From: Gemmatimonadaceae bacterium
Lineage (GTDB): Bacteria > Gemmatimonadota > Gemmatimonadetes > Gemmatimonadales > Gemmatimonadaceae
Assembly: GCA_036273715.1 (NCBI GenBank)
Contig: DASUHB010000033.1
Location: forward strand, 124,001-188,000
Length of the DNA stretch: 64,000 nucleotides
Direction: 5' to 3'
Positions 8,190-13,674 of this stretch are shown piece by piece. The notes beneath the pieces are model-generated. The model did no database searches. It worked only from the letters and a program-made list of their open reading frames with translations, and was not told where the DNA came from. Each line of letters opens with the position of its first letter. Position 1 is the first letter of the stretch. A program made the translations under genes and the position numbers.

Positions 8190-8219
8190 TTGACTAACGC
8201 ATCCCGGGCCGCATATTGG
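8190..8219 (+). promoter_or_regulatory. Possible promoter for the TonB-C-like array
   Basis: TTGACT (8190-8195), an 18-bp spacer and TATTGG (8214-8219) lie about 110 nt upstream of the first array gene, in the divergent region with the M1 peptidase. The -35 is good, the -10 weak. The -35 overlaps a GACTAAC variant of the dispersed heptamer. Confidence 0.3.
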
Positions 8220-8326: not shown

Positions 8327-9322
8327 ATGACACGCAGTGCGCCTCGCTGCAGTGGTGGGGTAGTCGCCGGTTCACGCGGGCGGTCTCTCGTTTTGGAGAT
8401 CGCGCTGCTGCTGGTCCCGCTGTCCGGTAGTGCGGCGCAGGCTCCGCGGACCGATCCTGCCACGGGCGGCCCGGCGGCTTCGGTGAGCGCGCCCGACTCG
8501 ACCTGGCTGGTCCAGGATTCTGTGGCAAGGGCGTGTCTGGACACGCTGTCTGACGGAAGTCTGCGCCCGGTCACCGTGTACCAGGTCGCGGCCGCCTCGG
8601 ATACAAGCCGCGTCGTGCTGGACCAGGTCGCGCTCATGTCCGAGCGCATCGGCGAGCGCGTGCGTGCTACGTTAGGCGGCGACTCGAGTGCTGTGCCGAA
8701 CGCCGACACGCTGGTGGCGTGGCGCCGCCTCGCCGGGAGTGTGCCGGTCAGAATGGTCGTGCACCGAGAAGCGGCCACAACCTGGACCACCGACAGCGGC
8801 GCCGACGCGGCCAAAGCCAAGCTTGCGACGCTCTACTCCACCGTGCTGCGGACCATCCCGAACGATGCACTAGGCATCGTCTGGCCGGACCGCCTGACGT
8901 CGGACTCGATAGTCGTCTCGTTTACGCTCACCAGCAGCCTGTCGTCGACACCACCGCTTACGCGGCCGGGCTATCCAATGGTGACGGTGTTCCGGACCAC
9001 CGGTGTCGGATTCACGCCTGCCATTGCGCGGCGGACCAACCCGGTGCCGGAGTACCCGATGGACGCGATGCAGCGGCGGATCGGCGCGGACGTGATGGTG
9101 AGCGTGGTCGTTAGGCCCAACGGCCGTGCTGACGCGCAGGGGAGGACGGTCGTCATCTCATCGCCCGATCCGATCGACATCGGAACGCGCGGCCATTTTG
9201 AGCGCGAGTTCAGCTCGGTCGTCGAAGGTGTCGTGCGGAATATGCAATTCGAGCCGGCCCGCGTCGGTGGCTGCGTTGTGCCGCAGCAAGCGGACTTCCC
9301 CTTCACGTTCCGCCGTGGGTAA
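8327..9322 (+). CDS. Secreted TonB-C-like domain protein, array copy 1
   Basis: 331 residues. The ATG at 8327 follows an AGGAG Shine-Dalgarno and begins a signal peptide (VLEIALLLVPLSGSAAQA). The mature part has a Cys in RACLDTL, a helical middle and a C-terminal domain with EYPMDAMQRRIGADVMVSVV, then FEPARVGGCVV, then an aromatic/basic end. The YP-x-x-A...G-x-V...V-x-x-x-G and final F-x-PA pattern resembles the TonB C-terminal domain, but there is no membrane anchor or proline-rich stalk, so it is probably a free periplasmic or surface protein. Two Cys (near the N-terminus and in GGCVV) are conserved through the array and could form a disulfide. Function unknown. Confidence 0.75.
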   Translation: MTRSAPRCSGGVVAGSRGRSLVLEIALLLVPLSGSAAQAPRTDPATGGPAASVSAPDSTWLVQDSVARACLDTLSDGSLRPVTVYQVAAASDTSRVVLDQVALMSERIGERVRATLGGDSSAVPNADTLVAWRRLAGSVPVRMVVHREAATTWTTDSGADAAKAKLATLYSTVLRTIPNDALGIVWPDRLTSDSIVVSFTLTSSLSSTPPLTRPGYPMVTVFRTTGVGFTPAIARRTNPVPEYPMDAMQRRIGADVMVSVVVRPNGRADAQGRTVVISSPDPIDIGTRGHFEREFSSVVEGVVRNMQFEPARVGGCVVPQQADFPFTFRRG

Positions 9323-9355
9323 GGCCGACCGCGCCGGTGTTCACTTGGGTCCTCC

Positions 9356-10308
9356 ATGCGTGTTGAGCAGTTCGGTCAACCGTCCGTGAGCCCGTCCCGG
9401 CGCCCGTTAGGCGTCGCCGCGCTGATGTTGCTGCTGGCCGTGCCGGTCGCAGCCTCCGCGCAAGCCGCATCGAGCGGCGTGATGGCCGACGACCGGGCCG
9501 GCCGCGCCTGCCTGGACACGTTGTCGGACGCCAACCTGACTCGCGTGACGGTGTCGCAGCGTGCGATCCTCATGGAAACCAATCCGGCGGTGCTGGCGCA
9601 GGCGGCGCTGATCTCGCAGCGCATCGCGGCGACGGCGCGCGCTGCGTTAGGCGGCGTCGGCGATTCGCTGCCCGCCGCCAACGCGCTCGGCGTCTGGCGG
9701 CAAGCGATCGAGCACCTCCCGTTGGTCATCGCGCTGCACCGGGACGGACCGTTTTCGTGGCATCGCGACCGCGGCGATGGATCGGCCACGGCCAAACTGG
9801 TTGCGTTCTACGAGCGCGTCCTGCGCTCGATTCCCGCCGACTGCTCTGGATCGTCTGGCCTGACGGCTACGCGCCCGACTCGGTCGCCATGCGCCTCGAC
9901 GTTCTGAGCGACGATCCATTCGAGAATGCGCCGTCGATGCGCGCCACGCTGTTCCCCGTCTTCACAGCCGACGGTTTGGCTCGCACCTCGGCGGCGGTCG
10001 ATGTGCGCGTCGATCCGGCGTATCCCCAGGACGCGATCGCTGACTCGATCACCGGCCGCGTATCGATGCAGGTCGTCATCGGCACCGATGGCAAAGCCGA
10101 CTCGAGCACGATACACATTGTCGAGCCATCGCCAGCGCAATTGGCGACATCGCCTATGGCGCACTTCTACCGCGAATTCATCGATGCATCACGGGCCGTC
10201 GTGACGCGCGAGACCTTTCGCCCGGCCAGGATCGCGGGATGCGTCATCCGGCAAGTCGTGAACCTGAGCTTCGACTATCTGCCGCGAAAGAAGCCGGCGG
10301 CGCAATGA
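9356..10308 (+). pseudogene. TonB-C-like array copy 2, broken by a frameshift
   Basis: The frame starting at ATG 9356 encodes a signal peptide (ALMLLLAVPVAASAQA), RACLDTLSDANLTRV and the middle region up to VLRSIPAD, then drifts into unrelated residues and stops at 9907. From about 9841 the +1 frame continues the family exactly (LLWIVWPDG, then YPQDAIADSITGRVSMQVVI and FRPARIAGCVI) to 10308. A single-base loss near 9841 explains it. Joined length would be about 317 residues, like its neighbours. Either a real pseudogene or a sequencing error; the fifth copy is also damaged, which favours decay. Confidence 0.8.
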
Positions 10309-11291
10309 CCGAGCATCGCATTCACCGGGCGTCAACGGAGACGGCCGTCGACCGGCTCCCGTGGACGCCCGTGCGCAGACAACGTTGGGCATGGGTGTTG
10401 GTCGCCGCGCTCGGACTGCCGGCGGCGAGCGCGCGACCGCAGTCTCCAGCCGCGCCCGCTTCGCCGGCGCGGGCCGTCGACGCAACGGCGTCGTGCCGAC
10501 TCCCTCTCGAGAGTTGGGTCGGTGCGTTCGATCTCGTCGGTCAATCGCTCACCGCCGCCGACACCGCCAGCGTGGTGACCGGCGAGCTGCCGCGGCTCAA
10601 CCGCCGCATCGCCGAGGCGGCGCGCGAGGCGTTAGGCGGCTCCGAAGCGGCGGTGCCGCGCGCCGACACGTTAGGCGGGCTCGACGGCGAGGTCGCGGTG
10701 CCGCTGCTGATCGTGCTGCATCGCGACGCACCGGCCACCTGGCACATCGCGCCGTCGGCCGACAGCGCCGGCGCGCGTATCGCCAAATTCTACAACGTGG
10801 TGCTCGGCGGCATGGCGCCTAACGACCAACGGATGCCGTGGCCGACGACCGCCCGCAGCGATTCGGCAGTGGTCCGGGTGTGGTTGAGCACCCAGCACTT
10901 CGGCCAACTCGATCTCGAACGGCCCGCGCCCAATGCTGTCCTGATCTTCAAGGCGCTGCATCCGATGGACCCGAACGGGCCGCCCGTGGTGGCGCATGGC
11001 GGATCGTTCCTGCCGTCATCGCACGTCATGGACGCGGGGATTGCGTGGCGGGTGGTGATGGAAGGGACCATTGATCCCGATGGCAAGCTCGAAAAGCACA
11101 CCATCCAGGACATCCGGTCGTTGGCGACGGCCTCTGACTCGGCGCACTTCAAGGACTATTACAAGCAGGTGGTCGACGCCGCGCGCGACGCGATGCTGCA
11201 CAGCATCTATGAACCCGCGCACCGCGGCGGGTGCGCCGTCGAACAGGTCATCCGTCAGTCGTTCTTCGTGAATTCCACCGGCAAACGATGA
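10305..11291 (+). CDS. Secreted TonB-C-like domain protein, array copy 3
   Basis: 328 residues, ATG at 10305 overlapping the stop of copy 2 (ATGA). It has an N-terminal hydrophobic segment (WAWVLVAALGLPAASARP) serving as signal peptide, a Cys in TASCRLPLE, a variable middle, and the C-terminal TonB-like fold: AWRVVMEGTIDPDGKLEKHT and YEPAHRGGCAVEQV. It groups with copy 5 (both have SFLPSSHVMD/RFIPSYKVME and a C-terminal IRQ-F/Y-F/Y-VN) rather than with copies 1, 2 and 4, so the array has two subtypes. Role unknown; TonB-like C-domains bind periplasmic loops of outer-membrane receptors, and this is a hypothesis only. Confidence 0.72.
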   Translation: MTEHRIHRASTETAVDRLPWTPVRRQRWAWVLVAALGLPAASARPQSPAAPASPARAVDATASCRLPLESWVGAFDLVGQSLTAADTASVVTGELPRLNRRIAEAAREALGGSEAAVPRADTLGGLDGEVAVPLLIVLHRDAPATWHIAPSADSAGARIAKFYNVVLGGMAPNDQRMPWPTTARSDSAVVRVWLSTQHFGQLDLERPAPNAVLIFKALHPMDPNGPPVVAHGGSFLPSSHVMDAGIAWRVVMEGTIDPDGKLEKHTIQDIRSLATASDSAHFKDYYKQVVDAARDAMLHSIYEPAHRGGCAVEQVIRQSFFVNSTGKR

Positions 11292-12205
11292 CACGCCGAA
11301 CGAGCGGTGCTGCAAGGGGCCGATGGGTCGCCGCGGCGGCGATTCTTGCATCGATTGCCTGTCCCGCTGCCGCCGCGTCGCAAGTCGCGGCGTTGGACAT
11401 GAGCACGCTGGCGCACAACGCGTGCGCGGACACGGTGACGCCGCAGCGATTTGTCACGACGACGATTTTTCAGTCGGCGGTCTCGGCCGACACGCTGTCT
11501 GCGCTCACGGCGCAGCTCGACCTGATCTCGCAGCAGGTTGCCGAACGTGCGCGCGCAGCGTTGGGCGCCGCGCCGAACATGGTCCCCGAGGACGATACGC
11601 TGGCCAACTGGCGTCACCTCAGCGGCACCCTGCCGCTCGAGGTCGTGTTCTACCGCGACAGACCGTCCGTCTGGCGTGTGGACAGCGCCGCTGACACGTC
11701 GAGAGCGAGGCTCCTCGCGGTATACAGTGACGTGCTGCGCCAGATGTCACCCAACGACCTGTGGGTCGTGTGGCCGCCCGGCTTTGCGTCGGACTCGGTC
11801 GTGCTCCGCTTTGCGTTAGGACCTAACGGTCCGCCCCGGGCGACGCATCAGCCGCGGTTTGCCGTTTTCTCCCTGCCCATGGGCGCCGTTGCACAGTCGC
11901 ACGCGCTGCCGAACCACGTCGCGCACCCCCAGTACCCGTACGACGCCGAGTTCCGCCGGGTGATCGCAACGCTGACAATGGATTTTGTGATCGATACGAC
12001 GGGCCACCCGGATTCTACGACGCTCAAGGATGAAACACCGCCGCCCAAGGTGTTCGACTTCCCGCGGGCCGAGATGTATTACCGCGAATTCGTCGCCGCC
12101 GCGCGCAAGGCGATCCTCGCCAGCACCTTTCACCCGGCTCGCTACGGCGGTTGCGCGGTGCGCGAGCTCGTGCGGGCGCCGTACGCGTTTCGCTTTCGCC
12201 CATGA
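11288..12205 (+). CDS. Secreted TonB-C-like domain protein, array copy 4
   Basis: 305 residues, ATG overlapping the previous stop by 4 nt. Signal peptide WVAAAAILASIACPAAAAS; mature Cys in HNACADTV; second conserved Cys in YGGCAVREL. The C-terminal domain shows PQYPYDAEFRRVIATLTMDFV and FHPARYGGC, the family signature. LWVVWPPG in the middle matches LWIVWPDG of copy 2, placing it in subtype A with copies 1 and 2. Translationally coupled to its neighbours, so the array is one transcription unit. Function not recognised. Confidence 0.72.
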   Translation: MTRRTSGAARGRWVAAAAILASIACPAAAASQVAALDMSTLAHNACADTVTPQRFVTTTIFQSAVSADTLSALTAQLDLISQQVAERARAALGAAPNMVPEDDTLANWRHLSGTLPLEVVFYRDRPSVWRVDSAADTSRARLLAVYSDVLRQMSPNDLWVVWPPGFASDSVVLRFALGPNGPPRATHQPRFAVFSLPMGAVAQSHALPNHVAHPQYPYDAEFRRVIATLTMDFVIDTTGHPDSTTLKDETPPPKVFDFPRAEMYYREFVAAARKAILASTFHPARYGGCAVRELVRAPYAFRFRP

Positions 12206-12874
12206 GGTGTAGGACAGTGAGATGCTTCCTCGTGACGTTAGTCGCGGTCCTCACTCAGTTGGTCGTTCCGTCACCGGCCCGTGCGCAGACGGCCGCCGTG
12301 CGTCCGGCGTGCCGACACCCGGTCACTGCCGCCGACGCCACCTATGACTTCGTCATGCAATCGCTCACGCCGGCCGACTCGGTGAAGGGAGCCGCAGGCG
12401 AGGTGTCGCTTCTCGACCAACGCATCGCCCACGCGATGCGCGGGTCGATCGGTGCTGCAGCTGAGTCTTCACGCCATTACACGAGGCCGGCCCGATTTCT
12501 TCCAGGTGACGAATACCTCGATGTTGGTGTTTGCGGCGCGGCACCCGGCCGACGCGGAGGCGCCGCCTATCTTCGAGCAAGAGGGTCGCTTCATTCCATC
12601 GTACAAAGTCATGGAGAGGGGCGTGGCGTGGCGGGTGGCGATGCAGGCGACGATCGACGATGAGGGTCGCGTGGAGAAGAGCACCGTGCACGACATCCGT
12701 GCGATGGCTTCGACGTCCGATTCGTCGCACTTCGAGGACTATTCCAGCAAGATCGTCGACGCGGCGCGTCAGGCGATGCTGGACAGCCGATTCGTTCCGG
12801 CGCATCGCGACGGTTGTAACGTCGAGCAGATCGTTCGGCAGGCGTATTACGTGAACCCGGCCGGCTATCGATGA
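12202..12874 (+). pseudogene. TonB-C-like array copy 5, internal deletion plus frameshift
   Basis: Begins with ATG at 12202 coupled to copy 4, has a signal peptide (FLVTLVAVLTQLVVPSPARAQ), Cys in RPACRHPV and DQRIAHAMRGSIGAA, then loses the family sequence and runs out of frame. From about 12460 another frame resumes the family (MLVFAARHPAD, AWRVAMQATIDDEGRVEKST, FVPAHRDGCNVEQI) to 12874. Compared with copy 3 roughly 230 nt of the middle are missing. The missing part spans the region between the N-terminal helix and the TonB-C-like domain. Probably non-functional. Confidence 0.78.
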
Positions 12875-12953: not shown

Positions 12954-13539
12954 TCAGAGGGGTTCCGGAGCGGACACATCGCCGAATCGACCGAACTTGA
13001 GCGCGAGCGTCGGCAGCACGAAGAGACTGAGGGCCGTCGATGTCACCAGACCGCCCAGGATCACGACGGCGAGCGGCCCTTCTATCTCCCGCCCCGGATC
13101 GCCGCTGCCGATGGCGAGCGGCAGAAGCCCCAATCCAGTTGCCAGCGCCGTCATGGGTGTCAGATCGACTCGGCGCCCTGAGCGCTCGACGTGCCGCGTG
13201 CGGGGGTCACAGACGAGATCGCCGATTCGGAAGACGTCGGGTGCGCGCGCCGCCTGCGTCGAGGCCGCGCACACGGTCATCAACTGCATTCCTGGCGGTC
13301 AAGAAGAGAATCGGAGTTGTACATCCAGCGCGGCGGAGCTCTCCGGCGACCGAGAACCCGTCTCGCCCAGGGAGCATCACGTCGCAGACGACGAGATCGT
13401 ACGCCGATCGTCGCGCCGCATCGAGACCCGAATCGCCGTCGAGCGCGGCGTCGACGACGTATCCCGCTTCCGCCAGTCCCTGGCGAAGGTACGCCGCGGC
13501 TTTGCGTTCATCCTCGATTACCAAGATCTTAATCGGCAC
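12954..13539 (-). pseudogene. Deletion relic: OmpR-type response regulator fused to the end of an HME-RND efflux pump
   Basis: From ATG 13539 the minus strand encodes a clean receiver domain (KILVIEDERKAAAYLRQGLA, DLVVCDVMLPGRDG with the phospho-Asp, [13 protein letters not shown]) resembling CusR/CopR-type metal regulators. At GLDAG near 13245 the frame shifts; the next frame carries the start of the winged-helix domain ([22 protein letters not shown]). Near 13155 this joins directly to the last membrane segments of an RND pump ([35 protein letters not shown]) and stops at 12954. So two deletions removed the regulator's C-terminus, presumably its kinase, the membrane-fusion protein and most of the pump. 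A decayed copper/silver-type efflux locus. Confidence 0.82.
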
Positions 13540-13592: not shown

Positions 13593-13674
13593 TGCGAAGG
13601 GGGGGACTCGAACCCCCACGGATTGCTCCACTGGATCCTAAATCCAGCGCGTCTACCAGTTCCGCCACCCTCGC
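13593..13674 (-). tRNA. tRNA-Leu (anticodon UAG)
   Basis: Minus strand from 13674: acceptor GCGAGGG pairs with CCTTCGC (one G-U), D-arm with GGTAGACGC, anticodon stem CTGGA/TCCAG with loop TTTAGGA giving anticodon TAG (reads CUA), a long class-II variable arm and T-arm GGGGGTTCGAGTCCCCC. 82 nt with discriminator A; the CCA end is not encoded. Stands alone between the RND relic and htrA. Confidence 0.95.

Follow-up and report, generated by a model that had tools for sequence, protein, structure and literature searches.

TonB serves the outer membrane as its energy-transfer protein and, to our knowledge, discussion of its C-terminal domain (CTD) is normally confined to its role as the end piece of a force transducer anchored in the inner membrane. 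A motor box has been described in TonB, and the CTDs of both TolA and TonB bind their targets by strand addition (PMC12204202). The locus studied here lies in a window of 64,000 nucleotides (the whole stretch of DNA that was analyzed, to which the positions below refer) and contains an array of five genes. With the TonB energy transducer (PF03544/PF13103, TIGR01352) the array proteins share the predicted fold and the signature positions of the C-terminal domain, but they carry a signal peptide instead of a motor-coupled helix and have no proline stalk, and they differ further in their second domain, their paired cysteines, and the absence of ExbBD neighbors. The resemblance to TolA domain III is a distant one of fold (Z of 4.9 to 1lr0 for copy 3), and unlike TolA, the array proteins lack an anchor and a long domain II, with no tol-pal context seen. 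Weak matches to NF038079, the NCBIfam model of the myxochelin receptor MxcH, in which a TonB-C domain is fused to the receptor, were given by 11 of the 25 family members; however, the array copies measure about 300 aa and have no plug or barrel, TonB_C being the only domain found above its cut-off in them. For their part, a set of sister Gemmatimonadaceae proteins (L055, L059, L069, L074, and L097) are likewise secreted and have an N-terminal Cys, a GC.V Cys near the C terminus, a TonB_C end and, in several cases, an N-domain that matches TonB_2. In contrast to the array proteins, they show a shorter loop before the last C-domain helix and an N-domain nearer to a recognizable TonB_2, and they were not seen in arrays.

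The original prediction of five tandem paralogues was borne out by open reading frames and the family profile, which placed all of them on the plus strand between positions 8327 and 12874 of the window. The source genome, that of a soil-type bacterium, is a 4.3-Mb draft that is 98.7% complete. The features of the array are as follows.

8190 to 8217, plus strand: sigma-70-like promoter match, possible operon promoter (consensus scan, one found versus 0.5 expected; weak)
8327 to 9322, plus strand: copy 1, intact open reading frame of 331 aa (TonB_C 30.5 bits versus a cut-off of 24.6; AlphaFold2 pLDDT of 74.8)
9356 to 10308, plus strand: copy 2, reading frame disrupted near 9846 (net one-base frameshift), two overlapping open reading frames
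10305 to 11291, plus strand: copy 3, intact (328 aa), of a divergent subtype that lacks the YP motif
11288 to 12205, plus strand: copy 4, intact, 305 aa (TonB_C 26.4 bits)
12202 to 12874, plus strand: copy 5, a relative of copy 3 with an internal deletion of ∼230 nt near 12455, frame broken
10305 to 10308, 11288 to 11291, and 12202 to 12205, plus strand: ATGA overlaps joining copies 2 and 3, 3 and 4, and 4 and 5, seen in the sequence

Four-base stop/start overlaps had been claimed from copy 2 to copy 5, and ATGA was indeed present at all three junctions. The promoter-like match, located 109 nt upstream of copy 1, was the sole match found in the region by the consensus scan, which is weakly consistent with the transcription of copies 1 to 5 as a single transcript. 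The two predicted lesions were also present in the sequence. Copy 2 has suffered its net one-base loss relative to an intact relative on contig JAICLH010000034 (L034), whose orthologue (L034 8107-8952) is 76 to 83% identical to it, while the deletion in copy 5, defined relative to copy 3, is also what shifts its frame. Copies 3 and 5 belong clearly to the family (family profile E values of 3e-91 and, for the copy 5 fragment, 6e-41). L034, from a close relative, has six copies in the equivalent position, after tig and an M1 peptidase gene, and since every reading frame of this syntenic counterpart is open, the array is not a product of chance.

From a reading of the sequence between 249 and 17613, the array lies among proteostasis genes (lon, clpX, clpP, tig, M1 peptidase, degQ-like, and dnaK). 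A functional link to lon, clpX, clpP, tig, degQ, and dnaK was considered and dropped, because other family members lie elsewhere and one relative of the genus has the M1 peptidase gene without an array. Downstream, positions 12954 to 13539 hold remnants that read like a response-regulator DNA-binding segment running into the terminal part of an RND efflux pump; they overlap a response-regulator receiver fragment, look decayed or rearranged, and adjoin a tRNA-Leu gene (13593 to 13674).

The N termini of the five copies were read directly. All of them begin with a basic stretch, which leads into a hydrophobic core and then a cleavage site of the AxA type, in agreement with the signal peptide attributed to every copy, and none contains the S-x3-H motor box. 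Similarly, neither a proline stalk nor a hydrophobic segment was found in the mature array proteins, as had been predicted; proline amounts to 7 to 9% of the mature chain and is scattered along it, and the position of the spacer is occupied by a folded domain in the model. The real TonB of the same genome (G000:C69), for its part, has the S-x3-H motif, a proline stalk, and ExbB/ExbD-like neighbors. The array proteins would be located in the periplasm, and they are not energy transducers: they cannot transmit ExbBD force, because a signal peptide stands in for the motor-coupling helix and there is no proline stalk.

The structures of copies 1 and 3, one from each proposed subtype, were predicted with AlphaFold2 using alignments of window and L034 sequences only (9 to 11 rows), and the mean pLDDT was 75 in both models. 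The features assigned to copy 1, with residues in mature numbering, were the following.

8519 to 8941, plus strand: N-terminal domain, residues 28 to 168 (b-a-b-b-a-b by DSSP of the model; profile link to sister N-domains)
8534 to 8536, plus strand: conserved Cys 33 (invariant in 25 members; 34 of 35 in the wider set)
8969 to 9319, plus strand: TonB C-terminal-like domain, residues 178 to 294 (predicted structure match to 6i97_D)
9272 to 9274, plus strand: conserved Cys 279 (Cys in 34 of 34 family sequences; Arg or Lys in 24 of 24 genuine TonBs)

The TonB-C-like end of the original prediction was recovered as a TonB fold in both models, so that the structural check proposed for refuting that prediction did not refute it. 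The C-domain of copy 1 matched 6i97_D with a Z of 11.2 and an rmsd of 1.8 Å over 88 residues, and that of copy 3 with a Z of 9.7 and an rmsd of 2.2 Å over 90 residues. The best 14 structural matches of copy 1 were all TonB or TonB-like CTDs, the following rows falling to a Z of ∼4, and the Foldseek result for this copy was concordant; in both copies, TonB CTDs alone rose clearly above background. At the sequence level, copies 1, 2, and 4 scored above the curated cut-off of Pfam TonB_C (PF03544), while the copy 5 fragment did not reach it and copy 3 gave no Pfam match; TonB_C matches at an E value of 0.1 or better were obtained for 23 of the 25 family members, and Pfam or TIGR TonB families matched most of them. 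Matches to PknH_C, EutM, and DUF6301, either single or weak, were set aside. The assignment of the predicted C-terminal domain to the TonB CTD fold is thus well supported.

Each mature array protein in which they were counted contains exactly two cysteines, and the conserved pair that had been noted proved to be these sole cysteines, maintained throughout the family. Both are invariant in the 25-member family alignment; when the set was widened to 35 members, all had the second and 34 had the first. The comparison set of genuine TonBs consisted of 24 Gemmatimonadaceae TonBs with S-x3-H and a proline stretch. The presence in an exported protein of only two cysteines, both conserved and with Cys in place of the TonB Arg/Lys, strongly suggests one intramolecular disulfide between them, which would probably tie the N-terminal beginning of the chain to the point where the last CTD strand starts.

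The region between the signal peptide and the TonB-like end had been regarded as the variable middle of a one-domain TonB-C protein. In the models it is instead a second structured domain: in both copies 1 and 3 the N-terminal half shows a strand-helix-strand-strand-helix-strand order, as does the C-terminal half of copy 1. When the profile of the array N-domain was compared directly with that of its own C-domain, the result was insignificant, Pfam gave no direct homology to TonB_2 or TonB_C, and a search of PDB sequences with the N-domain returned chance matches only. A weak link was provided by sister proteins retrieved with bridging profiles (L059, L060, L074, and L097), whose N-domains score 22.8 to 38.9 bits against Pfam TonB_2 (cut-off, 22), that of L055 falling narrowly under it (21.8 bits versus 22). 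A sister N-domain profile of four sequences matched that of the array N-domain with a P of 1.3e-5, and a twelve-sequence sister profile, some members of which may be without a true N-domain, did so with a P of 3.5e-4. Fold matches of the N-domain to RNA polymerase alpha (Z of about 4) were treated as background. Taken together, profiles and models lend moderate support to the view that the N-domain may be a divergent, TonB-derived, second TonB-CTD-like domain.

We define the family by a signal peptide, both domains, and the two conserved cysteines, all of which are present in the array. Profile searches were adopted because a single-protein search of genome contigs had yielded just one close relative. 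Searched with the family profile, 17 of 395 sampled genomes of the phylum, nearly all of one family, had members that were full length or clearly of two domains (E value of 1e-26); in the Gemmatimonadaceae search, ∼20 of 179 genomes carried a member, the remaining matches covering the TonB_C end only. Roughly 10% of Gemmatimonadaceae genomes thus have the family, in most cases as a single gene whose surroundings differ from genome to genome. No gene neighbor of the single-copy members was common across genera, and neither a TonB-dependent receptor nor any other shared partner was found beside family members. Within the genus, G357 has four copies, one with an internal deletion, and G228 a single frameshifted copy located elsewhere, with no array beside its M1 gene. 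An independent tandem triple is present in another genus (G419, L051 5177-8142), and the closeness of its first and third copies to one another suggests a recent duplication. The array is thus a lineage-specific expansion of a family that otherwise consists of scattered single genes. In agreement with the view that it is not a recognized system, no characterized family was matched in Pfam, NCBIfam, PDB sequences, or the open-access literature searched, and literature searches for anchor-free or tandem TonB-C proteins returned nothing on the array family. Within that literature, the TonB domain is already known, whereas a plan with two Cys, two domains, and no anchor, and the expansion of such proteins in tandem, appear to be undescribed.

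Other TonB_C proteins of unusual architecture were also observed. In the same genome, contig C63 encodes on the minus strand (L004 1462-2649) an exported 396-aa protein with CarboxypepD_reg, receptor Plug, and TonB_C domains, so that receptor plug and TonB-C domain are joined in one chain without a beta-barrel, and contig C69 (L060 2707-3495, minus strand; also L005) encodes an anchor-free protein with two TonB-C-like domains (TonB_2, 38.9 bits; TonB_C, 53.3 bits) in which the second conserved position is not a Cys. The protein at L052 6370-8034 has a likely lipoprotein signal and TPR repeats, followed by an array-type N-domain plus TonB_C module. Two small stalk-less TonB_C proteins (L061 1387-1788 and L002 1423-1989), one apparently secreted and one lipoprotein-like, indicate that anchor-free TonB_C proteins may be common in the group.

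In the midpoint-rooted tree, the array copies of the genus group together and form orthologue groups common across genomes. Thus, naming the six L034 copies H_a to H_f in order, copy 1 groups with H_c and G357_a, copy 2 with H_e and the G357 copy that bears the deletion, and a further group unites copies 3 and 5, H_f, and H_a. Of the two subtypes previously proposed, the one formed by copies 3 and 5 stands, together with the two L034 copies, as a strongly supported clade (support, 1.0), but copies 1, 2, and 4 do not form one. Between the window and L034, array orthologues are 55 to 83% identical, versus 94% for tig and 86% for the M1 peptidase. For this genome pair, dN/dS was about 0.25 to 0.38 for intact array pairs, 0.13 to 0.26 for the pieces of copy 2, 0.04 for tig, and 0.12 for the M1 peptidase, all of them rough ratios since synonymous distances are near 1. 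Judged by these sequence comparisons, the array proteins are evolving far faster than the neighboring genes, yet under purifying selection, and the breakage of copy 2 is recent, this copy having been under such selection until then. Across the relatives, arrays have formed and decayed repeatedly.

As regards function, since TolA and TonB CTDs bind by strand addition (PMC12204202), peptide binding is the natural guess. We tentatively favor, at rather less than even confidence, a role as passive binders: the soluble mature protein would bind extended segments of envelope proteins by beta-strand addition, TonB-box-like segments of outer membrane receptors being the first candidate ligands. As copies arise by duplication, diverge quickly, and are lost, the partners would be tuned or diversified.

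A possible explanation, to which we give somewhat less credit, is that the TonB-CTD fold serves as a generic scaffold for another task (binding of a small ligand, peptidoglycan, or a nonreceptor protein) unlinked to TonB-dependent transport. In comparison with genuine TonBs, the edge strand that pairs with the TonB box showed no higher conservation than the remainder of the domain (P of 0.18 and 0.38), copies 3 and 5 and the sequences related to them lack the YP motif, no receptor lies nearby, and the TPR lipoprotein has the same module, all of which would suit such a scaffold. On the other hand, most members retain the positions typical of the TonB fold (YP Pro, G229, PA, and Phe), and the fold closely matches that of a receptor-bound TonB (6i97). 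The same lack of preferential conservation of the pairing strand, together with the loss of YP in copies 3 and 5, counts against a TonB-box ligand, and we regard as unlikely the more specific version in which soluble, disulfide-stapled twin TonB-CTD proteins would engage TonB boxes or TonB itself, gating, buffering, or assigning receptors without force, with each array copy specialized for a receptor.

It is improbable that the array supplies soluble TonB-CTD mimics as decoys or immunity against phages, bacteriocins, or secreted attackers using the TonB route: the fast evolution, copy number changes, and decay in sister genomes would be expected of it, but no defense or mobile-element neighbors were seen, dN/dS is well under 1, and many relatives keep a single copy. 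Equally improbable, and disfavored, is that these are former transducers, paralogues of TonB that have turned into decaying junk since losing their anchor and stalk, given that, although two of the five copies are broken here and broken or deleted copies occur in two other genomes of the genus, all six copies at this locus are open in a related genome, purifying selection acted even on copy 2 until recently, and the anchor-free plan with both cysteines is family-wide and therefore ancient.

A family that preserves the TonB CTD fold but has shed the motor connection, acquired a fixed pair of cysteines and perhaps a second copy of the fold, and then multiplied in tandem would show that this domain can exist on its own, as a soluble binder in the periplasm, and the array family offers a direct test of what the domain can do without force. 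For Gemmatimonadota genomes, it also means that TonB_C matches do not equal TonB transducers.
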